Shown here piece after piece: positions 124-17,796 of a stretch of 49,780 nucleotides of DNA; the stretch's first letter is position 1, and each line of letters starts with the position of its first letter. Location of the stretch: positions 1-49,780 of the IMG/VR virus record IMGVR_UViG_3300018429_000005, one strand, 5' to 3'. This stretch comes from a virus. The notes beneath the pieces are model-generated. The model was not told the DNA's origin. It saw nothing but the letters and a program-made list of their open reading frames with translations, and did not search any database. The position numbers were made by a program, and so were the translations under genes.

Positions 124-368
124 ATTTGGTCATCCTCCCGCACGATGGTTCGCAGCGCCCCCTCCAGCCTCTCTATCCTCTCCGCTTGTTCGAGGATCAT
201 GACGGCGGCTCCATCAAGCTCATCGGCTTGGACGGTTAGGTAAACGTCGTCTCCCTCGGAGTCGTATACGGGGTTTTCACGAAAAGCTGCCGCGCTGGTT
301 TTTAGCCTCGCCAGCAATTCCTTGATCCTCGCGAGATCGTGGGCGTCCGCTTTGGTGGGGTTGGTCAT
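57..368 (-). CDS. Small hypothetical phage protein (103 aa)
   Basis: The family was not recognised. The protein is 103 aa, acidic and mostly helical, with a heptad-like stretch in its second half (ILEQAERIERLEGALRTIV) that could form a short coiled coil. Its ATG overlaps the stop of the upstream minus-strand gene in an ATGA junction, which points to translational coupling and supports the start. It is the last gene of the leftward operon, and its 3' end lies inside the terminal repeat. The convergent plus-strand operon ends at 49607, with a hairpin terminator between the two. Confidence 0.7.
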   Translation of the reverse strand: MTNPTKADAHDLARIKELLARLKTSAAAFRENPVYDSEGDDVYLTVQADELDGAAVMILEQAERIERLEGALRTIVREDDQMAAWCRGVARAALADEPSDRGS

Positions 369-655
369 AAGTGGTCCTTATTCTCAGGCGGTTCTCCGCA
401 GATGTCGCAGCTCTTGTCCCCGCAGTGATCTTGCCAGTCGTCGTCGAGTACATCGACGCGCTCTGCACAGGCCCGAACAGCTTTCGCCCAGCAAAGCAAG
501 CGATCAGCCTCGACATCATAGGTAAGCCTGTGAAGATGCTTCCTGTCAGGTGATACGATTAATGGAACGCTCTCTGCAACTGAGCGGGCCACGTTGCCAA
601 GTCGTTCTAACTCTCTTGCCGCTTCAATCGCGAGCTCCCTGTCTTTGCGCGTCAT
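365..655 (-). CDS. Small hypothetical protein with C-terminal Cys motifs (96 aa)
   Basis: The open frame extends upstream, but the part before MTRKDREL is low-quality shadow sequence, so the ATG at 655 is preferred. The protein is mainly helical, with an amphipathic segment (LAIEAARELERLGNVARSV), and ends in CGDKSCDICGEPP, a plausible metal-binding knuckle. The stop overlaps the start of the next gene by ATGA. The function is unknown. Confidence 0.65.
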   Translation of the reverse strand: MTRKDRELAIEAARELERLGNVARSVAESVPLIVSPDRKHLHRLTYDVEADRLLCWAKAVRACAERVDVLDDDWQDHCGDKSCDICGEPPENKDHL

Positions 656-659
656 GCGA

Positions 660-2030
660 TCAACTCCCTGTAGATGAGATTGGGGGCTTGGGCCGACACC
701 CTGGACACAGGCCATCAGACAGAGGCGAGTAGCGAGTGCATTTGTCACAGAAGCCCATCGGCTCGCCGTTGGATATCGCCTCTGCTCCTTCTTGATCCGG
801 GGGGAGAAGGGAGAGAACTTCCCCCGCGAGCTTTTTGGCGGTGTCGGCTTTGATGCGGCTCTTGGCAGCGTCCTGCCCGCCCTTCTCCGACAGGCGTCGG
901 AAGTGAGCGGCGTACGCGGCAATCCTTGTCGAACAGCTCCGTATTCCATCCTCGTAGGTCTTGGCTGGCGGGATTTGGTCGGGCTGAGACGAGAGGCGTT
1001 CGAGCGCGCGTTGTGCTATTGCATAGATTTGCCCGCCGGACTTCAGCGCGATCTCCCGCAAATCTGCTCGCAGCGCCTCCCGCACTTCCTCGGGCATCAC
1101 GGGCTGTTGGGCCGGGGCAGGCTGAGTGCGGCGCAATGCTGTTACTGCGCCTCGATAGGCTATCATATTCACCACATCGCGCTCGTACTGATCTTCGGAC
1201 GGCGCGACCGCATCCGCGATTTGGAATGCCAGGCGCTGCATTTCCGCATCGCTCATCACCTGTTGGGCTGCGGCCTCTTTGCGCCCAGCCTCACGACCAA
1301 CAGCGCAGCCATCTGCATAGGCTGCCAGTCTGGCCGCTCCCTCCGCTTGGGAAATCCGATCGCCGAGCCCGGAGCCTGCCACCCGTTCCACATCCTTCTC
1401 TGTTGGAACAGATCGTGCGGTTGCGGCGCGGCGGTGGCGGGCGAAGGTTTGGACAGCTTCGTCTTTATCTTCATAGCCGTCCTTGACCATAGCTGCATAA
1501 TGCTGCTTATGGCCAGTCGTGCGGCCCAAGCCAAGCCAATGGAGCAGTTTTGCGGCCTCATCACGATCAGCCTGCGTGACTTCCACATCCCCCTCTGTTG
1601 GGGCTGAGCTGCCGTCACTGCCCTTGGCAAACATCCTAGCCAAGTTAGGAGGCCACGCCTTGTCTTCCTCTGTTGGGGCTGGCGGGACATTGGGGATTAG
1701 GGCTGCTATAGCTGCCACTGCTGCGTCCCATCCAGCATCAAAACAATACTCCGGGCCACAGTTTTGCATGATGTCGGCAGTGAGCATCGCAGAATGTCTT
1801 TGGCCTTCGATTAGAGACCGTAGCTGCGTACCCTCTCCTGGCTCTGCGGGGGTTAGGGCTGCGATGATGGCGCGGATGGAGACCTGAACGATTTGCGACA
1901 GGTGTTCGAACGGGCATGTTCGGACGGTCGCAGGCATGGTTTCAAAGTCAGTCGCCTCGAAAGCCGTAGCCAAAATCTCACGTGCTCTTTCTTCCATATT
2001 GGTGTCTGAGTCTGTTATGAGGTCATCCAT
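660..2030 (-). CDS. 456-aa modular protein with C-terminal zinc ribbon
   Basis: No specific family was recognised. The protein is mostly helical and acidic, with three linker-like peptides of the form PTE-x-D (APTEEDKAW, APTEGDVEV, VPTEKDVERV) separating modules, and it ends in a CDKC...CPGC zinc-ribbon pair. The repeats are also visible in DNA, near 1396, 1593 and 1667. An ATG at 2036 is in frame but sits directly against the AGGGAGA ribosome site; the ATG at 2030 has normal spacing and is chosen. Either start overlaps the end of the upstream gene. It is the largest gene of the leftward arm, and its role is unknown. Confidence 0.7.
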   Translation of the reverse strand: MDDLITDSDTNMEERAREILATAFEATDFETMPATVRTCPFEHLSQIVQVSIRAIIAALTPAEPGEGTQLRSLIEGQRHSAMLTADIMQNCGPEYCFDAGWDAAVAAIAALIPNVPPAPTEEDKAWPPNLARMFAKGSDGSSAPTEGDVEVTQADRDEAAKLLHWLGLGRTTGHKQHYAAMVKDGYEDKDEAVQTFARHRRAATARSVPTEKDVERVAGSGLGDRISQAEGAARLAAYADGCAVGREAGRKEAAAQQVMSDAEMQRLAFQIADAVAPSEDQYERDVVNMIAYRGAVTALRRTQPAPAQQPVMPEEVREALRADLREIALKSGGQIYAIAQRALERLSSQPDQIPPAKTYEDGIRSCSTRIAAYAAHFRRLSEKGGQDAAKSRIKADTAKKLAGEVLSLLPPDQEGAEAISNGEPMGFCDKCTRYSPLSDGLCPGCRPKPPISSTGS

Positions 2031-2481
2031 CGTCATTCTCCCTTGCGGCGAGAGCGCGGAGGCAGGCGGCTGTGAGAGCGAGGGCTATAAGGCCTTGAGG
2101 GGCGACTGCCATATTGAGTACACCGCCACCGCCAGACCCACTCACTCCGGCGAAAGCGAGCGGCTTATCAGAGCCAGGTACTGCTCCGAAACCCACCGAC
2201 CAATGGCACCCTTCTGGCACCAGCAACATTGCCGAGTCAACGGAGGCGGTGTAGCGAGGAGCCGAGATTTCTGGCGGCTCCAACGTCTCATCCTCGGCCC
2301 ATTCGCGAAGATCGCTGAACGTGCCGTAGATCGGCTTCCGGGGGAAACGGCCCGGTTCATGGTCGATTATCCATGGCTTATCCGGGTGCACCGCGATCTC
2401 GACAAGAGTATCCAGTCGCCGATCAGGCCCGTTCGCAGCTTCGCACCGCTCGGCCAGCGTTTCCAACTCTGCTCGCGACAT
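2023..2481 (-). CDS. Conserved phage hypothetical protein (152 aa)
   Basis: The start MSRAELETLAERCEAA is chosen because the in-frame extension upstream is shadow sequence overlapping the 43-aa gene. The central YTASVDSAMLLVPEGCHWSV and the alanine-rich C-terminal helix (LALTAACLRALAAREN) match a small-protein type that recurs in phages of alpha- and gammaproteobacteria. That family has no assigned role. The gene starts 2 nt after the stop of the 43-aa gene and overlaps the start of the 456-aa gene, so it belongs to one tightly packed operon. Confidence 0.8.
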   Translation of the reverse strand: MSRAELETLAERCEAANGPDRRLDTLVEIAVHPDKPWIIDHEPGRFPRKPIYGTFSDLREWAEDETLEPPEISAPRYTASVDSAMLLVPEGCHWSVGFGAVPGSDKPLAFAGVSGSGGGGVLNMAVAPQGLIALALTAACLRALAARENDDG

Positions 2482-2483
2482 AG

Positions 2484-2615
2484 CTATTTCCCCTCCGAAC
2501 CGCGGACGATACCCCTGAGCCATTCCCGTGCTGTAATCGCATCGTGATCGGGCAGGATGGCAAGCGCCCAATGGATCAGCTTTGCGGAGATCAGGCGGCG
2601 GAGTTCGTCCATCAT
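2484..2615 (-). CDS. 43-aa small hypothetical protein
   Basis: The protein begins MMDELRRLISAKLIHWALAI and ends REWLRGIVRGSEGK. A GAGAGGACTGAAAAG leader, a variant of the leader shared by the left-arm genes, precedes tandem ATG codons. A sigma-70-like promoter lies just upstream at 2644-2672, making this the first gene of an internal transcription unit. Its amphipathic helical character is visible; its function is unknown. Confidence 0.65.
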   Translation of the reverse strand: MMDELRRLISAKLIHWALAILPDHDAITAREWLRGIVRGSEGK

Positions 2616-2643
2616 CTTTTCAGTCCTCTCGGTTCAATTCTGC

Positions 2644-2672
2644 TCTGTAAAGCAACAGGTTCACAGTGTCAA
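2644..2672 (-). promoter_or_regulatory. Sigma-70-type promoter, leftward
   Basis: Read on the minus strand, there is a perfect TTGACA, a 17-nt spacer and TACAGA. The first downstream ATG is at 2615, leaving a leader of about 20 nt with a ribosome site. The stretch 2616-2703 holds no gene. The pattern resembles the minus-strand promoters at 5509-5537 and 45805-45832. Confidence 0.6.
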
Positions 2673-2703
2673 TCGCCCCTTGCCTTGATAGGTTCGGATC
2701 GAT

Positions 2704-3000
2704 TCACTCGCAAAGACGAAGCGCTTCGGCGACAGTCAGCCCGTCGATCTCGGGGCGTTCTGGATGGTAAATTTTGCCCGTCATGACGCAGGCACTGAAA
2801 CCGGCGGCATAGAGCTTCTCGAATTTCTTTACCTGCGTAGGGCTAGCGACATAGCCGCTGCCCCGGTGGACCCAACGGCAGTTAAGGCCGTCGCCGATCA
2901 ATCGTGCCGCCCTGGTCTTGTAGCCGGTACCGTCCCGCGTCGGGCTCACAATCAGCTTCCCCTTCGCATAGCGCGCCAGTGAAATTGAGTAGTCTGACAT
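2704..3000 (-). CDS. Hypothetical protein (98 aa)
   Basis: A strong ribosome site (GGAGGA) 8 nt before the ATG fixes the start. The protein is basic and probably beta-rich in its first half (SLARYAKGKLIVSPTRDGTG). In size and context it is an early phage protein. No family was recognised, and nothing suggests lysozyme or peptidase activity. Confidence 0.75.
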   Translation of the reverse strand: MSDYSISLARYAKGKLIVSPTRDGTGYKTRAARLIGDGLNCRWVHRGSGYVASPTQVKKFEKLYAAGFSACVMTGKIYHPERPEIDGLTVAEALRLCE

Positions 3001-3003
3001 CGT

Positions 3004-3150
3004 TCATTCCTCCATTTCGAGTTCATTCAGCCGTGCGCGAAGCCGGGCCTGCAATGCCGCGGCCGCCGGCGCGATCAGCACGCCCAGCGCCTGCACCGCC
3101 AGCTCCAGATCCTCGCGGCTGAGCCTCACGGCGATTTCCGGTCGCGTCAT
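3004..3150 (-). CDS. 48-aa helical protein
   Basis: The start MTRPEIAVRLSREDLELAVQ is chosen because it overlaps the previous stop in an ATGA junction; the longer open frame upstream is shadow. The C-terminal part (QARLRARLNELEMEE) is a short amphipathic helix. The stop lies just inside the ribosome-site region of the next gene. The function is unknown. Confidence 0.6.
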   Translation of the reverse strand: MTRPEIAVRLSREDLELAVQALGVLIAPAAAALQARLRARLNELEMEE

Positions 3151-3491
3151 GGCTTTCTCCGATCGTGATGGTCGACCAGGATCGCAATCGCGGGATCGGC
3201 GAGGATCGCGTCGACGATTGCAGCGCCATGCGGTCTGTGTTCGTGATCGAGGCGCATGAGCGCCTTTATCGCCGCCCGGATCAATCGATTGCGCACCGCA
3301 GCGCGAACCTCGGCTGCGTGTGCTTCCTGCATCTTCCTGTTGCGCGCCGGCGTGATCGCCAGCGTGTGGCCTCGGGCGCGCAGCCGGTCTGTCAGGCGAT
3401 GGGCGATGCACCAGGTCTTGTGATGCTCCGACGGAAGCTCGCGATGGAGCCAGTCCGGGTAGAACGGGATATCCTGCGGCTCCTGGTTCAT
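3147..3491 (-). CDS. Hypothetical basic protein (114 aa)
   Basis: The start MNQEPQDIPFYPDWLHREL is chosen; it overlaps the upstream stop by 4 nt. The protein is rich in Arg, Ala and His, with a helical middle (RNRKMQEAHAAEVRAAVRNRLIRAAIKALM) that could bind nucleic acid or oligomerise. It is coupled at both ends by ATGA junctions. No family was recognised. Confidence 0.65.
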   Translation of the reverse strand: MNQEPQDIPFYPDWLHRELPSEHHKTWCIAHRLTDRLRARGHTLAITPARNRKMQEAHAAEVRAAVRNRLIRAAIKALMRLDHEHRPHGAAIVDAILADPAIAILVDHHDRRKP

Positions 3492-3868
3492 GACGTCGAC
3501 TCCTCGCGCTCGAAATACAGGCACTGCGCGACACTCGGATAATCGCTGTCGCTGATCGGCAAGGGCGCGGCCCGCACATAGATAGGCGCGCCGCGGCAAT
3601 CGCCTTGCAAATACAAAGAGAGGCCCATGCGCTCTGCCTCGATCAGGATGCCCTTTTCCAGGAGCGCGGTGCGCGAGCGATAGGCCGGAGAATTGCCCGC
3701 CCACGCATAGGAGCACTCATTCTCCCACCGCTGGCGAAGCTCCTCGCCTCTCTCGGCGAGCCAGCGCAAGCATTTCACGTCACCTTGCCAACCCTCCTCG
3801 GCCAGCTTAGCGACGATGGAGGACTCATATGCGAGCGGTTTGTTCGATACGTTCGCTGCGTTCAGCAT
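3488..3868 (-). CDS. Hypothetical protein (126 aa)
   Basis: The start MLNAANVSNKPLAYESS is fixed by the left-arm leader GAGGAGACTGGAA immediately before the ATG. The protein contains a Trp-rich helical part (LRWLAERGEELRQRWENE) and a beta-rich C-terminal part with IYVRAAPLPI. The family was not recognised. The stop overlaps the next start. Confidence 0.7.
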   Translation of the reverse strand: MLNAANVSNKPLAYESSIVAKLAEEGWQGDVKCLRWLAERGEELRQRWENECSYAWAGNSPAYRSRTALLEKGILIEAERMGLSLYLQGDCRGAPIYVRAAPLPISDSDYPSVAQCLYFEREESTS

Positions 3869-3938
3869 TTCCAGTCTCCTCGGTTTTCCGCTGATGCGGC
3901 TGTGCCGGCGCCTTGGGGCTGGCGCCGGCAAGGTCGAA

Positions 3939-4217
3939 TCAGTCAGGTTGCCAGTTAAAGTCACCGCGGTTCATCTCTCCGACCGTTGGGGAGCGTAGCT
4001 TCGCCCCATCCGGGCGCTTCCAGCCGTGATACCAGCCCGGATAGAAAGCGCCGAGCTTGCCCGGCACCGGTCGCGTCTTTGTGATCGTTTCGATCGCGCC
4101 GCAATCAGGGCATTCGTAACGGAGCGTTATTTCTGTATTTTCGATGATGGCGGCATGGCTTTCGCAAAACCCGCAAATGCGAGGCTTTCCGCTTTGTACC
4201 AAATCGCAAGTAGGCAT
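3939..4217 (-). CDS. Zinc-ribbon protein (92 aa)
   Basis: Two Cys pairs, CGFC near residue 15 and CPDC near residue 36, form an N-terminal zinc ribbon followed by a Trp- and Tyr-rich tail (AFYPGWYHGWKRPDG). Zinc ribbons of this kind usually bind nucleic acid or proteins; the target is unknown. The leader GGGAGACTGAGAA precedes the ATG. It is one of several small zinc proteins in this genome. Confidence 0.75.
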   Translation of the reverse strand: MPTCDLVQSGKPRICGFCESHAAIIENTEITLRYECPDCGAIETITKTRPVPGKLGAFYPGWYHGWKRPDGAKLRSPTVGEMNRGDFNWQPD

Positions 4218-4243
4218 TTCTCAGTCTCCCAGGGTTGAAAGTG

Positions 4244-4468
4244 TCAGCAACGCGCCGTGGCGTAGCCGTCCGGCACGCGCCGGACGCAAAGCCGTGGGCT
4301 CGGATGTTCGCGCCGCCAGCGCTCGGCCTCGGCCCTGTCCGGCCATATCCAGAGCTGCGCGGGATCAGGGGGCGTGCGATAGCCGGGCGCCGCGGCGCAA
4401 CCGGTCATGCTCAGATACGCGCCTTCGACGCTGAAGACGGCCGCGGCGATCAATACGAAATGTTTCAT
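4244..4468 (-). CDS. Small lipoprotein-like exported protein (74 aa)
   Basis: The N-terminus MKHFVLIAAAVFSV is a short basic plus hydrophobic signal, followed by YLSMTGC, a non-ideal lipobox, so signal peptidase II processing is possible but not certain. The mature part is Arg-, Trp- and Pro-rich. The leader AGGAGACTGAGACA precedes the ATG. A secreted or envelope-associated early protein could act in superinfection exclusion; that is inference only. Confidence 0.65.
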   Translation of the reverse strand: MKHFVLIAAAVFSVEGAYLSMTGCAAAPGYRTPPDPAQLWIWPDRAEAERWRREHPSPRLCVRRVPDGYATARC

Positions 4469-4488
4469 TGTCTCAGTCTCCTTTCCGA

Positions 4489-4644
4489 TCAGCGATGTGC
4501 GAGGCGCACGCTTTCCTTGCCCGTGCCTTCGCAGGAACAGCGATAGGCGTAACGCGGATCGCCGCGATGTGGTGGCGTGGTCCAGTCGACGCGGCCCGTG
4601 CCATGACAGCCCTGGCAGACGTCGTGCGGGTTGATGGTTTTCAT
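4489..4644 (-). CDS. DnaJ-type zinc-finger mini-protein (51 aa)
   Basis: The frame reads MKTINPHDVCQGCHGTGRVD and later YRCSCEGTGKESV. The CxGCHGTG and CSCEGTG motifs are the zinc-knuckle repeat of DnaJ cysteine-rich domains, here standing alone. The gene is preceded by GAGGAGACTGAGACA, the left-arm leader. It is probably a metal-binding protein that contacts another protein or nucleic acid. Confidence 0.75.
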   Translation of the reverse strand: MKTINPHDVCQGCHGTGRVDWTTPPHRGDPRYAYRCSCEGTGKESVRLAHR

Positions 4645-4663
4645 TGTCTCAGTCTCCTCGGGA

Positions 4664-4834
4664 TTATGCGGCCAAAGCGCCGCGGATCAAGTTCGCGTAT
4701 TTCAGCGGCAGCGGATCGCCGAGCTCGCCGGCCTCGAGCCGCTGCAACGTGCGAAAGCCGATGCCGAGAATGCGCGCGGCATGGCGCTGCGGGCCGATCG
4801 CCTGGCGGAGCGTGGTGAAGGTTGCGGGAGTCAC
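4664..4834 (-). CDS. Small helix-turn-helix regulator, Cro/XRE-like (56 aa)
   Basis: The gene starts with GTG, with GGGAGG at good spacing, in a GTGA overlap with the upstream gene. The sequence FTTLRQAIGPQRHAARILGI followed by GFRTLQRLEAGELGDPLPLK fits a helix-turn-helix with the second helix contacting DNA, as in small Xre-like proteins. It is the only clear DNA-binding regulator of the left arm and a candidate for one of the palindromes at 5518-5774. No direct proof of its target is visible. Confidence 0.7.
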   Translation of the reverse strand: MTPATFTTLRQAIGPQRHAARILGIGFRTLQRLEAGELGDPLPLKYANLIRGALAA

Positions 4835-5088
4835 GTAAGCCTCCCATGAAGCCGAGCGCGGCGCTTATACGGCCTCCCGATAGGATCGGTGCCATCGCTC
4901 GCCGGGCTCATAAGGGCGATTTCCTCACGAACCTCCCAAAGCGCCTTTTCCAGCCGCCGGCGCGCCCAGCGTATATCGCGCTCGCCTCGCCGCGTTGGGG
5001 AGCGTCCGTGTTCTATCACAGTGTTGTTGTAGGAATTCCGGGCGTAGAAGACTTCGTTGAGCCGTTGTTCAGCGCTAGTCGCGGTCAT
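4831..5088 (-). CDS. Hypothetical basic helical protein (85 aa)
   Basis: The ATG follows a GGAGGG site. The protein is rich in Arg and helical (RRGERDIRWARRRLEKALWE), which fits nucleic-acid binding or coiled-coil formation. The stop overlaps the GTG start of the helix-turn-helix gene, so the two are co-translated. The function is unknown. Confidence 0.7.
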   Translation of the reverse strand: MTATSAEQRLNEVFYARNSYNNTVIEHGRSPTRRGERDIRWARRRLEKALWEVREEIALMSPASDGTDPIGRPYKRRARLHGRLT

Positions 5089-5091
5089 CGC

Positions 5092-5307
5092 TTAGACCCT
5101 CCGCAGTTCGGAATTAGGGATGCGCAGATTGGTGTAGGTACCGCGATAGCGAAGGTTGACGTAAATCGGCGCTCGCTCACCATAGCTGACAAACTCCGCT
5201 CGCTCACCTTCGCCGTCGGTCACCCGCTCACCAGGGGTAAGATCGGTGAGTGCGCCATTCTGCTTAGCGATTACCAAGTCGCGCGGATCAAAGTCTTGAG
5301 TAAACAT
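5092..5307 (-). CDS. Small beta-rich hypothetical protein (71 aa)
   Basis: The leader AGAGGAGATTGGAAA precedes the ATG. The sequence alternates charged loops and short strands (ERAPIYVNLRYRGTYTNLRI), compatible with an SH3-like or OB-like mini-barrel. No family was identified. Confidence 0.7.
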   Translation of the reverse strand: MFTQDFDPRDLVIAKQNGALTDLTPGERVTDGEGERAEFVSYGERAPIYVNLRYRGTYTNLRIPNSELRRV

Positions 5308-5376
5308 TTTCCAATCTCCTCTGGCCTTATCCTGATCCGCGCGTCTGTGGTGACGCGCGGACAGGGAAGGTCAGTG

Positions 5377-5481
5377 TCACATTGCCGGAGCGAACATAAC
5401 TGGCGCGAAAAGAATCGGCGCCAGCATCAAAACTACGAGAGCATAAAACAGGAGTTTTTCGATGAGCGTGCTGCGTGGCAT
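5377..5481 (-). CDS. 34-aa single-pass membrane peptide
   Basis: The reading frame gives MPRSTLIEKLLFYALVVLML and continues hydrophobic to FAPAM. The left-arm leader CCGAGGAGACTGAAA is placed directly before the ATG, and the gene is first after the leftward promoter at 5509-5537, so it is probably made early and strongly. A basic N-terminus and about 25 hydrophobic residues indicate an inner-membrane peptide with a cytoplasmic N-terminus. The function is unknown. Confidence 0.7.
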   Translation of the reverse strand: MPRSTLIEKLLFYALVVLMLAPILFAPVMFAPAM

Positions 5482-5508
5482 TTTCAGTCTCCTCGGGTTA
5501 CGAATCAC

Positions 5509-5537
5509 TCTCTACAGTGACGCCACGCTGGCGTCAA
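5509..5537 (-). promoter_or_regulatory. Leftward early promoter
   Basis: Read on the minus strand, TTGACG and TAGAGA are separated by 17 nt, and the first ATG lies 28 nt further down at 5481. The spacer is filled by a perfect palindrome, so binding there would block RNA polymerase. Confidence 0.55.
5518..5536. promoter_or_regulatory. Palindromic operator-like site
   Basis: TGACGCCA-CGC-TGGCGTCA is a perfect inverted repeat with 8-bp arms, lying between the -35 and -10 of the leftward promoter. A T-run follows at 5542-5547 on the plus strand, so a weak rightward terminator is the alternative reading, but no gene reads into it from that side. Confidence 0.55.
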
Positions 5538-5600
5538 GGACTTTTTTCGCGGCTTTTGATTCTCCGGCTGCGCCGCAGGTGTTTTGGTCTGCTATCTGAT

Positions 5601-5619
5601 TGAAAAACAACATTTGTTC
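5601..5619. repeat. Operator-like 19-mer, copy 1
   Basis: TGAAAAACAACATTTGTTC contains the palindrome AACAA-CAT-TTGTT. The identical 19-mer recurs at 5664, exactly 63 bp away, close to six helical turns, as expected for cooperative repressor sites. Confidence 0.7.
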
Positions 5620-5663
5620 AAAAAGCATCATGTGTAAAACGGTCCAGAACAGTTTTAAGTCTC

Positions 5664-5682
5664 TGAAAAACAACATTTGTTC
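5664..5682. repeat. Operator-like 19-mer, copy 2
   Basis: This copy is identical to 5601-5619 and overlaps the -35 region of the extended -10 promoter at 5687-5695. A protein bound here would repress, or activate from the edge of, the rightward promoter. Confidence 0.7.
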
Positions 5683-5686
5683 TCTT

Positions 5687-5695
5687 TGGTATAGT
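5687..5695 (+). promoter_or_regulatory. Rightward extended -10 promoter
   Basis: TGGTATAGT matches the TGn-TATAAT extended -10 form, which needs little or no -35; no good -35 hexamer is visible upstream. Transcription would start near 5702 and reach the terminator at 5797-5820 before the first gene. Confidence 0.5.
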
Positions 5696-5741
5696 TTAAT
5701 TTACATAAAGGCAGATAGGAAAAAGAGAAAGTGTGTTGTGA

Positions 5742-5754
5742 GTGTGATACACAC
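5742..5754. promoter_or_regulatory. Palindrome GTGTG-ATA-CACAC
   Basis: This is a perfect 5-bp-arm palindrome downstream of the putative rightward start site. A second palindrome, TATGT-AC-ACATA at 5763-5774, is centred about two helical turns away. They are possible operators, and a second regulator is needed to explain them. Confidence 0.4.
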
Positions 5755-5796
5755 ATGAATCGTATGTACACATAGGGAATCGAGGATTAAACCATC

Positions 5797-5820
5797 ACAA
5801 GGCGTACAAGCCTTGTTTTT
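5797..5820 (+). terminator. Intrinsic terminator ahead of the rightward operon
   Basis: ACAAGGC-GTACAA-GCCTTGT forms a 7-bp stem with a 6-nt loop followed directly by a T-tract. It lies after the rightward promoter and before the first rightward gene, so it can act as an attenuator of that operon. Confidence 0.65.
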
Positions 5821-5896
5821 CAAGGAGATGAGGGGTAGGAGAAAGTGTTCTGGTTCGATGCTGTTGGAACAAATGATTTGAATCAAGGAGATAGAC

Positions 5897-6364
5897 ATGG
5901 GCAGGTTGTTCAGGCATGTCGGCAGGCCGCGATTGAAGAAGCTGCCGAAGGCGTTGGCGCTTCCGCTGAACGGATCTGAGACGCCTCCACAACGGCGACG
6001 GCGCACGAAATGTCCTTATGTCGCGATGATCCCCGGCGATCGGTTTTTCTGGCCTCTGGCGCCGGACAGCGGCGGTATCGACGTGCAGCGGCGCCGGCTG
6101 ACGCAAAGCATGAGCCTGGCACGGCGCAACACGGGAAAGGATTTCAAGAAGGAGGAAGGTGATAACGGCTATGGTTGGTGGGTGATTTGCATCCCGGTGC
6201 GAAGCCGCAAGCGAGCTCGGCAGCGCAGCGCCGCGGTGAAGCGCATGGAGCGAAACGAATTTGGCTATGCAGTGCCGTCGCGGCATACAGCGCTGCAAGG
6301 GCTGAGCCGATTTGGCCTGGAGGCGCTGCGGCTCAAAGAGGGTGAGCGCCTGCTCGAGGATTGA
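5897..6364 (+). CDS. Hypothetical basic protein, first gene of rightward operon (155 aa)
   Basis: AAGGAGATAGAC precedes the ATG. The protein is strongly basic (PPQRRRRTKCP; SRKRARQRSAAVKRMER), suggesting RNA or DNA binding. No domain was recognised. As the first gene after the attenuator-like terminator and just upstream of terS, it could be a late regulator or antiterminator, but this is inferred from position and charge only. Confidence 0.6.
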   Translation: MGRLFRHVGRPRLKKLPKALALPLNGSETPPQRRRRTKCPYVAMIPGDRFFWPLAPDSGGIDVQRRRLTQSMSLARRNTGKDFKKEEGDNGYGWWVICIPVRSRKRARQRSAAVKRMERNEFGYAVPSRHTALQGLSRFGLEALRLKEGERLLED

Positions 6365-6367
6365 TAT

Positions 6368-6396
6368 TTGACAGGCCGCGTGCGCACGCCTATTTT
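6368..6396 (+). promoter_or_regulatory. Promoter for terS
   Basis: TTGACA, a 17-nt spacer and TATTTT form a near-consensus sigma-70 promoter. The expected start site, near 6403, is almost at the terS ATG (6405), so the message would be leaderless or nearly so. Confidence 0.55.
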
Positions 6397-6404
6397 TTCG
6401 GCCT

Positions 6405-6929
6405 ATGGTTACTCGGCACAGCTCGGCGCACAGTTATAGTAGCGAAGAGGTTGAAAACATTATCGAATATGTTTGCGGCCAAATTGCTGCGGGCCGCGCG
6501 TTGTCGCGTGTGCTGTCGGAAGATAAGGGAATGCCGACGGGAGACACCTTCTGGAAATGGGTCCAGAAACAAAGCACTCTGGCAGACAGAGTTACTCAGG
6601 CGCGCGAAGCCGGTGTCGAGGCCCTTCTCAGCGAGGTGATCGAGATTGCCGACACCGCCAACGGCGATGCGTACATCGATCACGACAAGGCCGGCAAGCC
6701 GATTGCCCGTATCGACGGAGAGGCCATCCAGCGCTCCAAGCTGCGCGTGGAGTCGCGCTTCAAATACGCACAAATGATCGCGCCGCGTAAGTATGGCGAC
6801 AAGCTGGACGTCACCTCGGGCGGCGAACCGCTGCCGCCACCCTCGCCCCTCGTTATAGACGCCAGGGTGCAGACCATCATGCTCGCGGCGCAGCGCCGGC
6901 GCGACGGGGAGGGATTGCTGGAAGATTGA
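6405..6929 (+). CDS. terS: Terminase small subunit
   Basis: The sequence (DTFWKWVQKQ, then VTQAREAGVEALLSEVIEIA and RFKYAQMIAPRKYGDKLDV) follows the Sf6-type small terminase layout: an N-terminal helix-turn-helix, a central helical oligomerisation part and a C-terminal tail that meets the large subunit. TerS recognises the packaging site and controls cutting by TerL. There is no ribosome site before the ATG and no other good ATG before residue 43, which fits leaderless translation from the promoter at 6368-6396. It is separated from terL by a non-coding unit and one small gene. Confidence 0.85.
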   Translation: MVTRHSSAHSYSSEEVENIIEYVCGQIAAGRALSRVLSEDKGMPTGDTFWKWVQKQSTLADRVTQAREAGVEALLSEVIEIADTANGDAYIDHDKAGKPIARIDGEAIQRSKLRVESRFKYAQMIAPRKYGDKLDVTSGGEPLPPPSPLVIDARVQTIMLAAQRRRDGEGLLED

Positions 6930-7017
6930 GGCATGGGGGTCGCCGTGAGGCGACTTCGGGGGTCCCCCTCCCCGGTGGTTTGTGGGGAAACAGCACGTCT
7001 ACAAATTTCGATTTCAG

Positions 7018-7046
7018 TTGACACGAAAACCCAAGAATTCTAGACT
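7018..7046 (+). promoter_or_regulatory. Promoter of the non-coding unit
   Basis: TTGACA (perfect), a 17-nt spacer and TAGACT. The expected start is near 7053. The 5' strand of the inverted repeat CTCCCT...AGGGAG overlaps the -10, so that repeat may be an operator rather than RNA structure. Confidence 0.6.
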
Positions 7047-7076
7047 CCCTGCAACCCTGCTCTCAGGGAGAGTTGC
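7045..7076 (+). repeat. Interlocked inverted repeats (pseudoknot-like)
   Basis: CTCCCT (7045-7050) pairs with AGGGAG (7065-7070), and GCAAC (7051-7055) pairs with GTTGC (7072-7076). The order gives an H-type pseudoknot if transcribed from an upstream start. If the promoter at 7018-7046 is used, only the second pairing would be in the RNA. Confidence 0.4.
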
Positions 7077-7392
7077 GTGTCATTCCCAAGAACCCCCTCC
7101 CCGGTCTTTCAACCTGAAACGAGTCTCTAGAAAATCCGTCTTGCATATCGTCGCCGAAACAAGTAAGCACTTCACTATCTGGTTACGGCGGCGCGGAAAG
7201 CAGACGCGCAATTCGACGGAATAAGGCGGCATGAGTCGTGGGTATCGACGCCGCTGGCGATAGGTTCAGGCGGGCATTGCTGACGCAGGACTGCCACACG
7301 AAACTGCTGGTTCGAATCCAGCCGTGCTTCGCCGGAGCAGCGCCCGGCCCGCAACTGGTAGAAGGCGGTCCACCCTCCCGGATCGCACGGAG

Positions 7393-7435
7393 AGAGGACG
7401 CGAAAGGCTTCCCCCTGCCCGTCGCGTCCTCTTTT
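7393..7435 (+). terminator. Intrinsic terminator upstream of terL operon
   Basis: AGAGGACGCGA (7393-7403) pairs perfectly with TCGCGTCCTCT (7422-7432), an 11-bp stem with an 18-nt loop, followed by TTT. It ends the non-coding unit and would stop transcription from terS into terL unless read through. Confidence 0.7.
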
Positions 7436-7468
7436 CACGAGAAGCAAAGCGCGCTACACCGAGCATCG

Positions 7469-7693
7469 ATGAAACAAGATCAACCGCCGCTTTGGGAGAG
7501 GATGCGAGCTGTCGCTGCCTCTCCGAAAGGACAATCCCGCAGAGACGAACTACGCGACAAGGCGGATGAATTGGAGGCAAAGACCGCCGGCTTTTATGCC
7601 AAACCACAGACCGTATCGGTCAAAAGTTTCGTAGGAGCGTGGGCGCGCGCTCGTCGGGCGTATTGCGAAATAACCGGCGAGCCGTTGGTTTAG
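7469..7693 (+). CDS. Small hypothetical protein before terL (74 aa)
   Basis: The start MKQDQPPLWERMRAVAASPK is chosen because the upstream open frame crosses the terminator and the T-arm. The protein is basic and helical. Its stop is 2 nt before the terL ATG, so the two are probably co-translated. The ribosome site is weak. The function is unknown; small genes at this place can be packaging accessories, which is inference. Confidence 0.55.
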   Translation: MKQDQPPLWERMRAVAASPKGQSRRDELRDKADELEAKTAGFYAKPQTVSVKSFVGAWARARRAYCEITGEPLV

Positions 7694-7695
7694 CG

Positions 7696-9360
7696 ATGAC
7701 CAAAGCCGCCCAGGCCCTCTCCTACGAGGCACTCGCCCCGTACATGACCGAGGCAGAGCGCGCCGAGCTCGTCGATCTGCTTGCCCGCGACAAGCGACTC
7801 TTCTATCCGACCCCCGGCCCTCAATATGTCGCGGCGACCTCCGAAGCCGACATCATCGGCTATGGCGGCGCCGCCGGCGGAGGCAAGAGCTGGTTGATCA
7901 CCGGATTGGCGTTGACCGAGCATATGCGCAGCGTGATCTTCCGCCAGCACAAGAACCAGACCCGCAAGTTCGTGCAGGATTTCGCCAAGATCCTCGGCAA
8001 TTCGGACGGTTATTCGAGCCAGAACAGCGAGTGGAAACATGAAGGCCGGCTGATTGAGTTCGGCGGACTAGAGGACCCGTCGGACCACGAGAAGTGGCAG
8101 GGACGCGACCACTCGCTGAAAGCCTATGACGAAGCGACGCAGATGCGCGAATCGGACGTGCGCTACACGATGGGCTGGTGCCGTAGCGACGACCCTGACG
8201 AGCGCTGTCGCGTGCTGCTGACCTTCAACCCGCCGACCACGGCGGAAGGGCGCTGGGTGATCCGCTTTTTCGCGCCATGGCTCGACAAGACCCATCCGCG
8301 TCCGGCCAGCGAGGGCGAATTGCGCTGGTTCACCACGATCGGCGACGATCCCGATTTCGAGGTGCCCGACGGCCGTCGCTTCGTCGTGCGCGAGGACGGT
8401 AGCTTCGACTACGACTTCGATCCAGGGGCTTATACCGGCGCTCGGCTGACCCTGATCAAACGGCCCAAGAGCCGGACCTTCATCACCGCCAAGGTGACGG
8501 ACAATCCCTATTACGTGGCGACCGGCTATATCGGCATCCTCCAGAACATGCCCGAGCCGCTGCGCAGCCAGATGCTCGAGGGCGACTTCCTCGCCGGCGT
8601 CGAGGATGACGAGTGGCAGGTGATCCCGACCGCCTGGGTCGAGGCGGCACAGGCGCGCTGGGTCGAGCGCACGTCGAAGGCCGATTTCGTCAAGGGGCCG
8701 ATGGACGCGCTCGGCGTCGACGCGGCCCGCGGCGGCAACATGGGCGGCACCACGGGGATGATCGGCAAGGACAAGATGGTGATCTCGCCGCGCCACGGCA
8801 CCTTCTTCGACACCCAGATCGCGCTGCCGGGCGTCGACGTCAACACCGGCAACCTCGCCGCCGGGCAGGTCATCATCCATCGCCGCGACGGCGCTCCGGT
8901 ACAGCTCGACGTCGCCGCGATCGGCGCCAGCGTGCTCGACTTCCTGCAAGAAAACCACGTCCACGTCGTCTCGCTGAACGGCACTGCTGCGGCATTCGGG
9001 CTGACAAAGACGACAATGATGCGCTTCGTCAATTTGCGTGCGAAATTGCACTGGCGAATGATGGAGGCGCTCGATCCGATGCTGCCCGACGATCAGGCGC
9101 TTGCCCTGCCTCCGGATCCGGAACTGCTTGCCGACTTGACCGCGACGCGATGGAAGCTGGGCTCGAACGGCATTCAGATCGAGGACAAGCGAGACATCAA
9201 GAAGCGGATCGGGCGCAGCCCCGACAAGGGCGAGGCGTGCATCTACGCCAACGTGAACACCCCGAAACGCGTCGTGACAATCGGCGGGATAGCGGGTATG
9301 CCCGCGCGAACGTCGAGCTACGAGGACGATCGGCTTCGCGAATTGGAGGAGCAGCGGTGA
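7696..9360 (+). CDS. terL: Terminase large subunit
   Basis: The packaging motor and nuclease, 554 aa. The ATPase Walker A is GGAAGGGKS at residues 57-65, and Walker B with the catalytic Glu is LKAYDEA at 141-147. A C-terminal RNase H-like nuclease follows, with a candidate metal-binding Asp at 342 (LGVDAARGG). The start MTKAAQALSYEALAPYM is chosen because the gene directly follows the stop at 7693. The length and order are typical of podoviral terminases of the BPP-1/epsilon15 kind. The stop overlaps the next ATG by 1 nt. Confidence 0.95.
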   Translation: MTKAAQALSYEALAPYMTEAERAELVDLLARDKRLFYPTPGPQYVAATSEADIIGYGGAAGGGKSWLITGLALTEHMRSVIFRQHKNQTRKFVQDFAKILGNSDGYSSQNSEWKHEGRLIEFGGLEDPSDHEKWQGRDHSLKAYDEATQMRESDVRYTMGWCRSDDPDERCRVLLTFNPPTTAEGRWVIRFFAPWLDKTHPRPASEGELRWFTTIGDDPDFEVPDGRRFVVREDGSFDYDFDPGAYTGARLTLIKRPKSRTFITAKVTDNPYYVATGYIGILQNMPEPLRSQMLEGDFLAGVEDDEWQVIPTAWVEAAQARWVERTSKADFVKGPMDALGVDAARGGNMGGTTGMIGKDKMVISPRHGTFFDTQIALPGVDVNTGNLAAGQVIIHRRDGAPVQLDVAAIGASVLDFLQENHVHVVSLNGTAAAFGLTKTTMMRFVNLRAKLHWRMMEALDPMLPDDQALALPPDPELLADLTATRWKLGSNGIQIEDKRDIKKRIGRSPDKGEACIYANVNTPKRVVTIGGIAGMPARTSSYEDDRLRELEEQR

Positions 9361-9686
9361 TGCGCACAGATTACGACATTCCGAAAATCGAGTCGCCGCT
9401 GGAGGGGTCGACCGTTTTTCCGAAACAGGATGACGAACCGCCGCCTTTCACTCCGGAATTCGCGGCGCGGCAGAAAGAGCTTTTACGGCGCCGCCACACG
9501 AATGTCACCCGTGGCGAATATGAGGATTTGCAGGCCGAGGTCGAACGGCTCGCCAAGCTGCTCAAGCGCTTTGGAGAACTCGCTGCGGGCACGCAAAAGC
9601 GGCAGGCTGAGATGCGCGCCGACCTGCTCGCGGCCGGCGCGTTCGAGAAGAAGGGCAAGATCCTTCTGCCACGGGACCTGAACTGA
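9360..9686 (+). CDS. Coiled-coil protein between terL and portal (108 aa)
   Basis: The ATG overlaps the terL stop (TGATG). Residues 40-85 form a clear coiled coil (EYEDLQAEVERLAKLLKRFG). The N-terminus is acidic and Pro-rich. No family was recognised. It may be a small head-assembly or packaging accessory judging by place only. Confidence 0.7.
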   Translation: MRTDYDIPKIESPLEGSTVFPKQDDEPPPFTPEFAARQKELLRRRHTNVTRGEYEDLQAEVERLAKLLKRFGELAAGTQKRQAEMRADLLAAGAFEKKGKILLPRDLN

Positions 9687-9688
9687 CA

Positions 9689-9880
9689 GTGTGCGTCTCC
9701 GCGCCCAAGGTTCCCAAGATTGAGTCGGTGCCCGAGCGCCAGGCCGCGCGCCTGCCCGATAACGGCGATCCGACGGTTCGCGCCGCCCAGCGTCGGCGCC
9801 GGATGGTGACGCAGGCCATGACGCTGCCGAACCTCGGTCTGCCTTCGGTGTCCGGACCTTCGACCTTGGGTGTCGGTTGA
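9689..9880 (+). CDS. Conserved small protein upstream of portal (63 aa)
   Basis: The gene starts with GTG 2 nt after the previous stop. The sequence MCVSAPKVPKIESVPERQAA, with a later AAQRRRRM, matches a small conserved phage protein that commonly sits just before the portal gene. Its role is unknown; it may be a minor structural component. The stop overlaps the portal ATG (TGATG). Confidence 0.8.
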   Translation: MCVSAPKVPKIESVPERQAARLPDNGDPTVRAAQRRRRMVTQAMTLPNLGLPSVSGPSTLGVG

Positions 9881-11577
9881 TGCCTCGCGATTTCGAGCCT
9901 CCCCGCGACTTCACGATTCGCGAGCGCTGCGAGCATCGGCTGACCAGCATGAAGGCGCTGAGGAAGCCGAGCGAACCGGATTTCAAGGAAATCGCCCGGC
10001 TCGCTCTGCCGAGCCGCTCCGAATACATGACCACCGGCAGCCTTACCCGGCGCGCCAACACTTCGAAGCAGGACACCGCCGGGCGCGTCGCCGGGCGGAC
10101 ACTGGTCAACGGCATGGCGACGGGTCTTTCATCGAACGCGCGGCCGTGGTTCGAGCTGACCACGCCCGACTCGGAGCTCGCGCAATACCGACCGGTCAAG
10201 GAGTGGCTCTATGCAGAGCAGCAGGGTATCTACGCCTTCCTCGCCCGGACCAATTATTACGACGCCAACAAGGTCGCCTACGCCCAGCTCGGCCATATGG
10301 GCCACGCCTGCAATTTCATGATCGAGCATTCGCGCTATCTGATGGTCGCTCATCCGATGGAGGCGCTCGAATTCTGGATCGCGCAGGATGACGGCCTGCG
10401 CGTCAACGCGGTCGCCCGGCGCGTGGCCAAGACCGTCGCTCAGATGGTCGAGACGTTCGAGTGGCGGAAACTCTCCGACCAGGTTCGCGCCGCCTATAAT
10501 CGCGGCGCCGTGCACATGCTGGTGCCGTGCATGCACCTGATCGAGTGGAACAAGGATCGCGACGGCGATTATTGGGACTATGGCAACAAGCCGTGGCGCT
10601 CGATCTGGTGGGACGAGGGCGTGTCGTCGAAGAAGGACGAGGATCTGCTGCGCGTTTCCGGGTACGACTCGAAGCCCTTCTCCTGCCCGCGCTGGGAAAC
10701 GACCGGTGCGCAGGTCTATTCCGACGCGAGCCCGGCTTACGACGCTTTGCCCGATCTGCGCGAGCTGGAGCTGATGGGCCGGGAATATGGACGAGCGAGA
10801 GGCAATCTCGTCAAGCCGGCGCTGAACGTGCCGGCAGGATTGCAGCAGACGCCGATCAGCGTCGATCCGGGCAGCCTCAACTTCGTCAACGAGATGCAGG
10901 GCAAAGTGGAGCCCACGCTTCGTCCCGATCCGAACGTGCTGGTTGCGATAGAGCGCGGCCGGGATGCCGTGACACGGAGGGTCAACCAGCTTTTCTACGC
11001 CGATCTGTGGATGGCGATCACCGACATGGAGGGCATCCAGCCGCGCAACCAGGAGGAACTCGCTTACCGCAATGAGGAGAAACTGACTCAGCTCGGCCCG
11101 GTCGTCGATCGCGTCCATATCGAGAAGCTCGAGGTCGACATCGACCGCGTCCACTCGATCCGCAAGAATCTCGGGCTGGTTGCGCCGGCCCCTCCGGAAT
11201 TGCGTGAGAGCGGCGTCGCCATCCAGTTCGTTTCGATCCTGGCGCAGGCGCAGAAGGCCGCGGCGAACAGCCAGATCGAGCGCATCGCCCGCTTCGTCGG
11301 TTTTCTCGTCGGAGCTTTTCCCGAAGCGGCCTTGAAGTTCGACGCGCAGCAGGCGATCGACGAGTTCGCCCAGAACACCGGCACCACGCCCAAGATCATT
11401 CGATCCGACGAGGTCGTCGCACGGCTGATGAAGGCCGCGCAGGAAGCGGCGCAGGCCAAGGCGACGCAGGAAGCGGCGCCGGCGCTGCGCGACGCGGCGC
11501 AGGGCGCTGAGCTGCTCAGTCGTACGCAGGTCGGGCCGGAAGATCGTTCGATGCTCGATCAGTTGATGAGGGTTTGA
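9880..11577 (+). CDS. Portal / head-to-tail connecting protein
   Basis: This 565-aa protein is of the podoviral head-tail connector family (Pfam Head-tail_con type), the dodecameric ring through which DNA enters and leaves. Typical features are the N-terminal RFxxLxSxRxPxxxxWxEIA-like region (CEHRLTSMKALRKPSEPDFK), the GRTLVNGMATGLSSNARPWF stretch, the clip and wing around residues 180-330, and an Ala/Gln-rich C-terminal helix for tunnel packing. ATG 9880 is used because it overlaps the upstream stop. Confidence 0.93.
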   Translation: MPRDFEPPRDFTIRERCEHRLTSMKALRKPSEPDFKEIARLALPSRSEYMTTGSLTRRANTSKQDTAGRVAGRTLVNGMATGLSSNARPWFELTTPDSELAQYRPVKEWLYAEQQGIYAFLARTNYYDANKVAYAQLGHMGHACNFMIEHSRYLMVAHPMEALEFWIAQDDGLRVNAVARRVAKTVAQMVETFEWRKLSDQVRAAYNRGAVHMLVPCMHLIEWNKDRDGDYWDYGNKPWRSIWWDEGVSSKKDEDLLRVSGYDSKPFSCPRWETTGAQVYSDASPAYDALPDLRELELMGREYGRARGNLVKPALNVPAGLQQTPISVDPGSLNFVNEMQGKVEPTLRPDPNVLVAIERGRDAVTRRVNQLFYADLWMAITDMEGIQPRNQEELAYRNEEKLTQLGPVVDRVHIEKLEVDIDRVHSIRKNLGLVAPAPPELRESGVAIQFVSILAQAQKAAANSQIERIARFVGFLVGAFPEAALKFDAQQAIDEFAQNTGTTPKIIRSDEVVARLMKAAQEAAQAKATQEAAPALRDAAQGAELLSRTQVGPEDRSMLDQLMRV

Positions 11578-11579
11578 GG

Positions 11580-11771
11580 ATGCCGAATTGTCTGGTTCTG
11601 GAAGACGAATATGCGTCGAGGTTCAAAAGCCTTGGGTTCGAGCTTTGCGTGTACCCTACAGGATTTTTTGCGCACAGAGACGATAAAAGACTGCTGATCG
11701 AGCATCACGAGCACATTCCGACGAGAACGGCTTTGGACTACGCTTTGGGCTTGGCGCAGGAGGCGGTATGA
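11580..11771 (+). CDS. Hypothetical protein (63 aa)
   Basis: The start MPNCLVLEDEYASRFKSLGF is preceded by TTTGAGG. It is a small alpha/beta protein, slightly lower in GC than its neighbours. The function is unknown. The stop overlaps the start of a membrane peptide gene. Confidence 0.6.
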   Translation: MPNCLVLEDEYASRFKSLGFELCVYPTGFFAHRDDKRLLIEHHEHIPTRTALDYALGLAQEAV

Positions 11772-11872
11772 TTGATCGTGAAATCGACACGCGCTTGATC
11801 GCCGCGATCATTTATCTGTGCGCGCTTTTCCTGATTTGCGGAATCGCCATCGGCTTGCGCCTGCATGGATGA
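11768..11872 (+). CDS. 34-aa single-pass membrane peptide
   Basis: MIDREIDTRLIAAIIYLCAL is followed by FLICGIAIGLRLHG. One transmembrane helix is evident. It overlaps the previous stop by 4 nt (ATGA) and the next ATG by 8 nt. This position is unusual for a membrane protein; it may be a minor virion or regulatory peptide. Confidence 0.55.
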   Translation: MIDREIDTRLIAAIIYLCALFLICGIAIGLRLHG

Positions 11873-12287
11873 TCGCGAAATCCTGAAACCGCGGCAACAG
11901 CGCGGCATCACTCGCATTCAGCGCGCGCAATTCGATCTCGAAAAGCTCTGGGCGATGCCAGAGTTCAAAAGATTTTTGTTTACAATCTTTGAAACCGCAC
12001 ATATGTTCTCGGGCATCTACGGCACCGACGGCCGTTACCTCCCCTACGGCGAGGGACGCAGGAGCCTGGGATACGACATTCTCCGCACGATCGAACAATT
12101 CGATCCGGTTGCCTTGGCGATCATTCTGGCGGAGGAGCAGAAATCCCGGAAAGAGGCTCCACATGCAAAACGCAAATACGATCGACAACGTGAACTCGGC
12201 ATCGACGACGATCCTCTTGGATTCAAGTCGGACAACCCACCCGGCACCGGCCTCTGGCTTTATGGGACTGATCCCGACGTCGAGTGA
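11865..12287 (+). CDS. Bbp19-like structural protein (140 aa)
   Basis: The segment FDLEKLWAMPEFKRFLFTIF with SGIYGTDGRYLPYGEGRRSLGYD matches the Bbp19 family named from Bordetella phage BPP-1, found beside capsid genes in related podoviruses. The exact role is not established. The position between portal and scaffold/capsid agrees with that family. Confidence 0.8.
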   Translation: MDDREILKPRQQRGITRIQRAQFDLEKLWAMPEFKRFLFTIFETAHMFSGIYGTDGRYLPYGEGRRSLGYDILRTIEQFDPVALAIILAEEQKSRKEAPHAKRKYDRQRELGIDDDPLGFKSDNPPGTGLWLYGTDPDVE

Positions 12288-12294
12288 GCGCGCG

Positions 12295-13026
12295 ATGGGT
12301 CGGCTGATGCGGGCCGAAGATCACGACGAGGCGACCATTCTCGGCACGGAGCCGACCCCGGAACCTGCACCCGAGCCGACCCCGGAACCTGCACCCGAGC
12401 CGACCCCGGAACCTGCGCCCGAACCGACTCCCGAACTCGAACCTGAACCGGAGCCCAACGCCTTGCTCGGCGCGCCCGAAGGCGATTACGAAATCGACGT
12501 CGCCGCGCTTCCCGAAGGCACGAAGATCGACACCGAGGCGCTCGCCGTGCTGACGCCGGTCGCCAAGGAAATCGACTTGTCGAATGCAGGCATGACCAAG
12601 CTCGCCGTGGTCTATGCGACGAAAATCCTGCCCGCGCTCGATGCGCGCGTCACCGAGAGCATCGAGACGCAGGCCGCGCAGCAGCGCAAGGATTGGGAAG
12701 CCGAGACCAGGCTCGCCATTTCCGGGGGCAAGGGCGCCGACGGCAAGGTCGTCGAGGCGCTCAAGGACGACAAGGGCGAACCGATTTACGGCGGCCTGCC
12801 CTACAAGGACGTCGTCGCGACCGCGGCGCGCGCGCTCGACCGCTTCGGCGGTCCTGGTTTGCGCGAAGCGCTTGATGCTTCAGGATATGGCAATCGCGAG
12901 TCGATGATGCGCTTCGCCTTCACCGTCGGCCGCGCGATCAAGGAAGACGATTTCGACCGCGGCAGCGGACCATCGGAAAAACCCAAATCACTCACCGAAG
13001 CCCTCTACGGCACGAAAGCCGAATAA
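12295..13026 (+). CDS. Scaffold-like capsid assembly protein (243 aa)
   Basis: Directly upstream of the major capsid gene, this acidic protein has an N-terminal run of EPTPEPAP repeats (about residues 18-50), a helical middle (VYATKILPALDARV; TQAAQQRKDWEAETRLAI) and a charged C-terminus. Position, acidity and helicity fit an internal scaffold; there is no clear sequence signature. ATG 12295 is chosen; ATG 12307 is possible. Confidence 0.65.
   Translation: MGRLMRAEDHDEATILGTEPTPEPAPEPTPEPAPEPTPEPAPEPTPELEPEPEPNALLGAPEGDYEIDVAALPEGTKIDTEALAVLTPVAKEIDLSNAGMTKLAVVYATKILPALDARVTESIETQAAQQRKDWEAETRLAISGGKGADGKVVEALKDDKGEPIYGGLPYKDVVATAARALDRFGGPGLREALDASGYGNRESMMRFAFTVGRAIKEDDFDRGSGPSEKPKSLTEALYGTKAE
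12349..12444 (+). repeat. 24-bp tandem repeat encoding EPTPEPAP
   Basis: Three near-identical 24-nt units (12349, 12373, 12397) and a degenerate fourth encode the Pro/Glu linker of the scaffold-like protein. The near identity of the DNA implies recent expansion by slippage. Confidence 0.85.
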
Positions 13027-13039
13027 GGAGATTTGAACC

Positions 13040-14065
13040 ATGGCTGTCCAGGGATCCGGCGTTCCCACGCTTCTCGATATCCTCAACACCATTGCTCCCG
13101 ACGGCAAGTCGTACAAGATCGCCGAGGTGCTGACCCAGGCCGAGGAGGTGCTGGAAGATTACGTTATGGTCGAGGGCAACACGACCGACGGCCACAAGGA
13201 CGCGGTGCGCACTTCGCTGCCGGAGCCCAGCTTCCGCGCCTTCAACGCCGGCGTGCCGCGCACCAAGGGAGGCTCGTCCACGATCGAGGAAACCTGCGCG
13301 CTGCTCGAGGACTTCAGCCAGGCCGATCGCGAGCTTGCGCTGCGCCACCCCGGCGGCAAGGATGCCTATCGCACGCAGGAAGCCATTCCGCACATGCAGG
13401 GCATGTCGAACAAGATGGCGCGCTCGCTCTTCTACGCCAACCAGACCACCAACCCGCTCGAATTCACCGGCTTCGCGCCGCGCTTCAACACGATGGACGA
13501 CACGCTCAGCCAGGCCGCCGGGCAGATCATCGACGCCGGCGGCACCGGCTCGGACCTGCGTTCGATCTGGCTGGTCGGCTGGTCGAAGCAGACGGTGTTC
13601 GGCATCTATCCGAAGGGCACGCAGGCCGGCCTCTCCCACGAGGATATGACCAATTCGGACAACGGCAAGACCCTCTACGATGCCGACGGCAATCCGTTCG
13701 TCGGCTTCGAGGATCACTGGCTGTGGCGTTGCGGCCTGATGGTCAAGGACTGGCGCTATGTCGTGCGCATCGCCAATATCGACCTGACCGAGCTGACGGT
13801 CGATGCCGCCACCGGTCCCGACATCCAGGATTTGATGATCCAGGCCGTCGAGCTGATCGAGAGCACCAACGGCGTGCGCGCCGCCTTCTACATCCCGCGT
13901 CCGCTGCGCACGTTCTTCCGCCGGCAGATTCAGGCCAAGGCCAACCTCAACCTGTCGTGGGGCGATCCGTCCAGCATCAGCGGCAAGAAGGTGATGATGT
14001 TCGACGAGATTCCGGTGCGCCGCACCGACGCGCTCAACACCTCGGAACAGCAGGTCACGGGATGA
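13040..14065 (+). CDS. Major capsid protein
   Basis: 341 aa with a strong ribosome site (AAGGAG). The sequence (LLDILNTIAPDGKSYKIAEV; LEDYVMVEGN; KGGSSTIEETCALLEDFSQAD; LVGWSKQTVFGIYPKG) is the major capsid type of BPP-1/epsilon15-like podoviruses, expected to adopt the HK97 fold with an N-terminal arm, E-loop, P- and A-domains. It would assemble with the cement protein encoded next. Confidence 0.9.
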   Translation: MAVQGSGVPTLLDILNTIAPDGKSYKIAEVLTQAEEVLEDYVMVEGNTTDGHKDAVRTSLPEPSFRAFNAGVPRTKGGSSTIEETCALLEDFSQADRELALRHPGGKDAYRTQEAIPHMQGMSNKMARSLFYANQTTNPLEFTGFAPRFNTMDDTLSQAAGQIIDAGGTGSDLRSIWLVGWSKQTVFGIYPKGTQAGLSHEDMTNSDNGKTLYDADGNPFVGFEDHWLWRCGLMVKDWRYVVRIANIDLTELTVDAATGPDIQDLMIQAVELIESTNGVRAAFYIPRPLRTFFRRQIQAKANLNLSWGDPSSISGKKVMMFDEIPVRRTDALNTSEQQVTG

Positions 14066-14093
14066 CGCATCGCGCAGACAAGGAGTTATCAGC

Positions 14094-14525: not shown

Positions 14526-14547
14526 CCCGGAACAAGGAGATTGCGTC

Positions 14548-15027: not shown

Positions 15028-15049
15028 ACGCAAAGGAAGGACGACGCCC

Positions 15050-16071: not shown

Positions 16072-16075
16072 GACG

Positions 16076-16414: not shown

Positions 16415-16430
16415 GGATGAGGAAAAGACC

Positions 16431-17785: not shown

Positions 17786-17796
17786 GAGAGACTGAC

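Follow-up and report, generated by a model that had tools for sequence, protein, structure and literature searches.

A candidate packaging recognition site and expression signals between the terminase genes of an uncultured phage

The question raised by this locus is what occupies the non-coding bases between the terminase genes, terS and terL, of a virus known from a metagenomic contig. A preliminary description had predicted that they form an independent transcription unit for a structured RNA with a tRNA T-arm. The analysis presented here indicates that the interval, 6930–7468, most likely holds a packaging recognition site together with ordinary expression signals.

The interval between terS and terL and the proposed RNA

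The window, meaning the whole stretch of DNA analysed, is a virus record from IMG/VR, 49,780 bases long and with a G+C content of 63 %. It encodes a phage DNA polymerase, a helicase, an exonuclease, a gp2.5-like protein and a methyltransferase, and its head module is BPP-1-like. A 1992-aa protein encoded at 24656–30634 matched phrog_9880 (unknown function) and is possibly an internal virion protein, judged by its genome position. All genes and elements of the locus described below are on the plus strand. The small-subunit gene terS was located at 6405–6929 (phrog_1482, E 4e-25) and the large-subunit gene terL at 7696–9360, with 49 % identity to Bordetella phage BPP-1; the nearest cultured TerL relatives were less than 50 % identical to the window TerL, too distant for a choice between cos and pac on the basis of terminase clade. 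Upstream of terL is a small phage gene of 74 aa (7469–7693, phrog_27185), a relative of which likewise immediately precedes terL in Xanthomonas phages, so that the non-coding part was taken as 6930–7468. The earlier statement that this interval contains no credible ORF was upheld, and there was no solid protein-family match within it. One candidate for a hidden gene, an 80-aa frame running across the repeats with a weak match to phrog_27901 (E 0.0027), was rejected because tblastn gave only matches with E > 1.

The prediction of a dedicated structured RNA was not borne out. The folding energy of the interval was ordinary (minimum free energy −148.5, z −0.9; −144.7, z −1.1, against shuffles), and the hairpins noted previously at 7191–7209 and 7225–7255 are present but do not exceed chance. 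The ATTCGAC motif at 7211, also listed previously, was uninformative because TTCGA has 117 occurrences on one strand and 97 on the other. The covariance and tRNA searches that the preliminary description had proposed as a check found no family for the interval using Rfam and ARAGORN: at gathering level there was no Rfam match in the interval or in its relatives, and with E values up to 10 there were only chance microRNA and sRNA matches. DNA similarity in phages and plasmids was absent save for matches of the T-arm to tRNAs, and 399 genomes from the family of Sphingomonas laterariae gave only short matches, several of them to tRNA-Arg T-arms.

Conservation among relatives across 7140–7440 was not above that of shuffles. 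The pattern was one of random drift without paired changes, which the preliminary description had named as evidence against such an RNA, and paired changes were not countable since the relatives contain no homologous sequence. Three of the six nearest relatives have almost no space, or none, for the RNA; the terS stop and TerL are separated by about 120 bp in contig L024 and by 253 bp in L003, and a new reading frame opens within about 150–160 nt of the terS stop in both L068 and L069. A stand-alone structured non-coding RNA acting in packaging or translation would accommodate the perfect tRNA-like arm (including the G53–C61 pair, and with an exact loop expected by chance at about 1 %), the potential pairing of AAGCAC (near 7166) with GTGCTT (near 7324) beside that arm, and the framing by a promoter and a terminator. 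However, with a fold no more stable than shuffles, no DNA-level relatives, no T-arm in the related contigs, no Rfam or ARAGORN match and no CCA after the arm, such an RNA was judged very improbable.

The T-arm-like hairpin

The perfect 5-bp T-arm with loop TTCGAAT that had been reported is present as sequence at 7306–7322 (GCTGG-TTCGAAT-CCAGC), and no other perfect 5-bp T-arm was present in the window. The number expected by chance per window is 0.01 with the exact loop and 0.18 for the class TTCRANY, for a feature that was picked after the fact. The arm, its surroundings and the terminator downstream were absent from all six nearest relatives with both terminase genes. An identical 23 nt (7305–7327) was found in a tRNA-Asn of Streptomyces phage Shaeky, an identical 22 nt (7300–7321) in a tRNA-Gln on an inovirus record, and a 22-nt T-arm stretch was 95 % identical to tRNA-Arg(UCU) in several genomes from the family of Sphingomonas laterariae.

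These matches to real tRNAs make a tRNA remnant as good a reading as chance, and the hairpin is probably one or the other. A decayed gene, whereby a phage or host tRNA left behind its 3′ end as the T-arm and part of the acceptor strand, would concern only 7300–7330 and was considered quite possible, if somewhat short of probable. Apart from the matches of 22–23 nt, it is favoured by an unrelated phage contig, L128, which has a tRNA-Trp 28 nt past its terS stop (L128:4463–4534). Short T-arm matches are, however, to be expected given the many conserved tRNAs, and neither an anticodon arm nor a D-arm is left in order.

The earlier judgement that the interval encodes neither a usual tRNA nor a tmRNA was supported, since ARAGORN found no tRNA or tmRNA and no Rfam tmRNA model, including alpha_tmRNA, matched. 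A T-arm with a TTCGAAT loop is shared with tRNAs and with the permuted two-piece tmRNA of alpha-proteobacteria, but the interval lacks their acceptor, D and anticodon arms, CCA and tag frame. A permuted tRNA or tmRNA using the D-arm-like GCAACTGGTAGAAGGC past the T-arm was also considered and rejected, as no consistent acceptor or anticodon pairing was seen by eye. A T-arm-like hairpin of this kind can thus mislead unless relatives are compared.

A conserved bipartite element downstream of terS

Seven contigs were compared, namely the window, L002, L003, L024, L066, L068 and L069, most of which are fragments and whose TerL proteins are 56–76 % identical to that of L003 or the window. In L024 the terL gene is split into two overlapping frames (L024:3752–5474) by a frameshift or an assembly error, and in L068 the reading frame directly after the element described below (L068:2700–2760) appears by eye to be HNH/recombination endonuclease-like.

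It was found that a bipartite element begins 0–28 nt past the terS stop in all seven contigs. Part 1, which is CGACTTCGGGGGCCTCTCCCCCGG in L003 and CGACTTCGGGGGTCCCCCTCCCCGG in the window (6951–6975), is a G+C-rich imperfect dyad present in every contig. Part 2, TCTASAAATTT or a variant of this consensus, comes after it at an almost fixed distance and in the window is TCTACAAATTT at 6998–7008. Measured from the start of part 1, CTA(C/G) was found at +45 to +48 throughout (offsets of +45, 46, 46, 46, 47, 47 and 48). The tetramer CTAG is depleted in the genome, with 17 found against 65 expected.

The best 20-mer block among the seven contigs had 93 matches, compared with a mean of 73.7 (sd 1.6, maximum 78) in shuffles, corresponding to a z of about 12. 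Element sites scored 30.8–46.1 bits and all other positions in the loci examined scored at most 19.9, giving a single high-scoring site per contig. When each contig was scanned with a weight matrix built without it, the element ranked top in every contig; in L002 it was nominally second, as an adjacent register of this site was marginally ahead. For the window it was first of 99,420 positions, and the runner-up, at 7080, was a degenerate copy of the element 129 bp downstream. This second copy (7080–7136) has the same spacing as the first, with CCCCCTCCCCGGT at 7093–7105, an exact 13-bp direct repeat, followed by TCTAGAAAAT at 7126–7135, and it overlaps the start of the proposed RNA. Neither 6951–7008 nor the second copy had been included among the elements listed in the preliminary description.

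A search of IMG/VR for the exact bipartite pattern gave matches limited to members of this clade. Looser dyad patterns also matched contigs without related terminases, and these matches were taken as chance. The element is not shared by the nearest cultured TerL relatives, the terminase genes of BPP-1 abut, and the block is absent from remoter relatives, most of which have directly adjoining terS and terL genes. As a possible mark of prophages it gave no pattern match in the 399 genomes from the family of Sphingomonas laterariae.

Weak T-rich tails follow the dyad only in the window and L066, and the absence of a T-run in the other five contigs indicates that the element is not simply a terminator. 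The near-constant spacing over several turns of DNA, together with a G+C-rich dyad lacking a consistent T-run, suggests a protein-bound DNA site, as does the occurrence of one primary site per contig beside terS. A combined terminator and promoter of the terminase genes was considered unlikely; the dyad does fold as a hairpin past the terS stop, and a T-rich tail follows it in L066 and, weakly, in the window, but the T-run is missing elsewhere, the near-fixed spacing of CTAS fits a protein bound to DNA, and promoter hexamers occur at no fixed place.

Promoter, leader and terminator

The promoter and terminator of the predicted transcription unit were both confirmed as sequence features. The sigma-70-like promoter at 7018–7046 (TTGACA-17-TAGACT, 10/12) is one of the two best such sites in bases 1–20000, the other being at 6368, just before terS, and it has a copy of the element on either side. 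The terminator-like hairpin at 7393–7435 consists of an inverted repeat (7393–7432) with 11 perfect pairs and 16-nt arms of 88 % identity, followed by TTTT; the longest stems in shuffled DNA were about 7.7 bp. Promoter, leader and terminator form a lineage-specific part of the locus, which would act as a transcription unit before the small gene and terL and is perhaps a late-operon leader. A transcript from promoter to terminator is possible, and from these signals we infer that the unit, if transcribed, would yield a leader of about 385 nt.

Gaps in two other contigs contain comparable signals. After the element in L002 (L002:1374–1531) there are two perfect stems, 12 and 11 bp long, in a region with z −4.0, and past these a promoter-like site, TTGCCA-17-TATAAA. 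A long-range hairpin with 14 bp of perfect pairing lies in the gap past the element in L066 (L066:3354–3600; overall z −2.0), as do a promoter-like site with TTGACA and, ahead of the next gene, several other strong hairpins.

In phage lambda, pR′, the 6S RNA and tR′ form a late leader, in which a promoter, a non-coding leader and a terminator lie ahead of the late genes. The same layout is found here, where the leader would measure about 385 nt and the terL gene pair follows immediately, and such an RNA may act as a gate on the terL/head operon in the manner of pR′–tR′. By this account, which was considered plausible but less likely than not, the promoter at 7018 would give a short constitutive RNA stopping at 7435, and read-through into the small gene, terL and the head genes would occur only after antitermination. 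The flanking of terS by the region's two best promoters, the strong terminator ahead of the small gene and terL with no good promoter past it, and the promoter-like sites and strong stems in the gaps of L002 and L066 are consistent with a late leader. Against it, the order of stem and promoter varies among the relatives, with both stems ahead of the promoter in L002 and the long stem ahead of it in L066; family searches identified no antiterminator, and neither a Q-like factor nor a pause motif as in lambda was identified. A late-operon leader is compatible with a packaging site, as it concerns the downstream half only. A stronger version, in which the roughly 385-nt leader begins within the packaging site, carries a T-arm mimic and itself links terminase and head expression to packaging, was regarded as highly unlikely.

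The element as a candidate packaging site

For a protein acting at the element, terminase is the obvious candidate, and a terminase recognition site of cos- or pac-like type is the reading of the conserved sequence after terS that we moderately favour. The suggestion that the position between the terminase genes indicates a role in packaging probably stands in this form, that is, as a conserved DNA site and not as an RNA. TerS proteins have an N-terminal helix–turn–helix DNA-binding domain, those of lambda and PaP3 bind cos, and pac is often located just upstream of terL or, in P22, within terS (PMC9611059, PMC5000459).

In the proposed mechanism, terminase would recognize the DNA element at about 6951–7008, with the copy at 7080–7136, to start packaging, and the same element may also serve to end it. 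We infer that TerS would bind the spaced TCTASAAAT motif or motifs and that TerL would cut within the G+C-rich dyad GGGGG(N)CCCCC or close to it, creating a genome end of the cos or the pac/terminal-repeat type. The related Caulobacter phage SR18 was deposited with 2,078-bp terminal repeats located elsewhere, so that cos is not to be assumed.

The cos sites of lambda, HK97 and PaP3 resemble the element in having a G+C-rich core next to terS/terL, additional recognition motifs and one site per genome; the lambda 12-base overhang and the PaP3 20-mer are G+C-rich, as is the dyad. The element differs in lying between terS and terL and has no demonstrated sequence kinship to these sites. It likewise shares with the pac sites of P22 and SPP1 and with terminal-repeat boundaries a short recognition sequence adjoining the terminase genes, although the P22 site is inside terS and the element is outside the gene.

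The element was found beside the terminase genes and once per genome, as judged from seven contigs that are mostly fragments, and no contig ends at it. It is also conserved among related terminases while its flanks drift, yet it is absent from L070, whose TerS is the closest to that of the window (50 %), and this is the main counter-evidence to a packaging site. A conserved site after terS could instead serve replication, recombination or regulation.

Neither a cultured member nor genome ends were found for the clade of phages with BPP-1-like terminases to which the window belongs. The element is a concrete candidate for the packaging signal of this uncultured clade and, if this is confirmed, genome ends would be callable directly from its metagenomic contigs.
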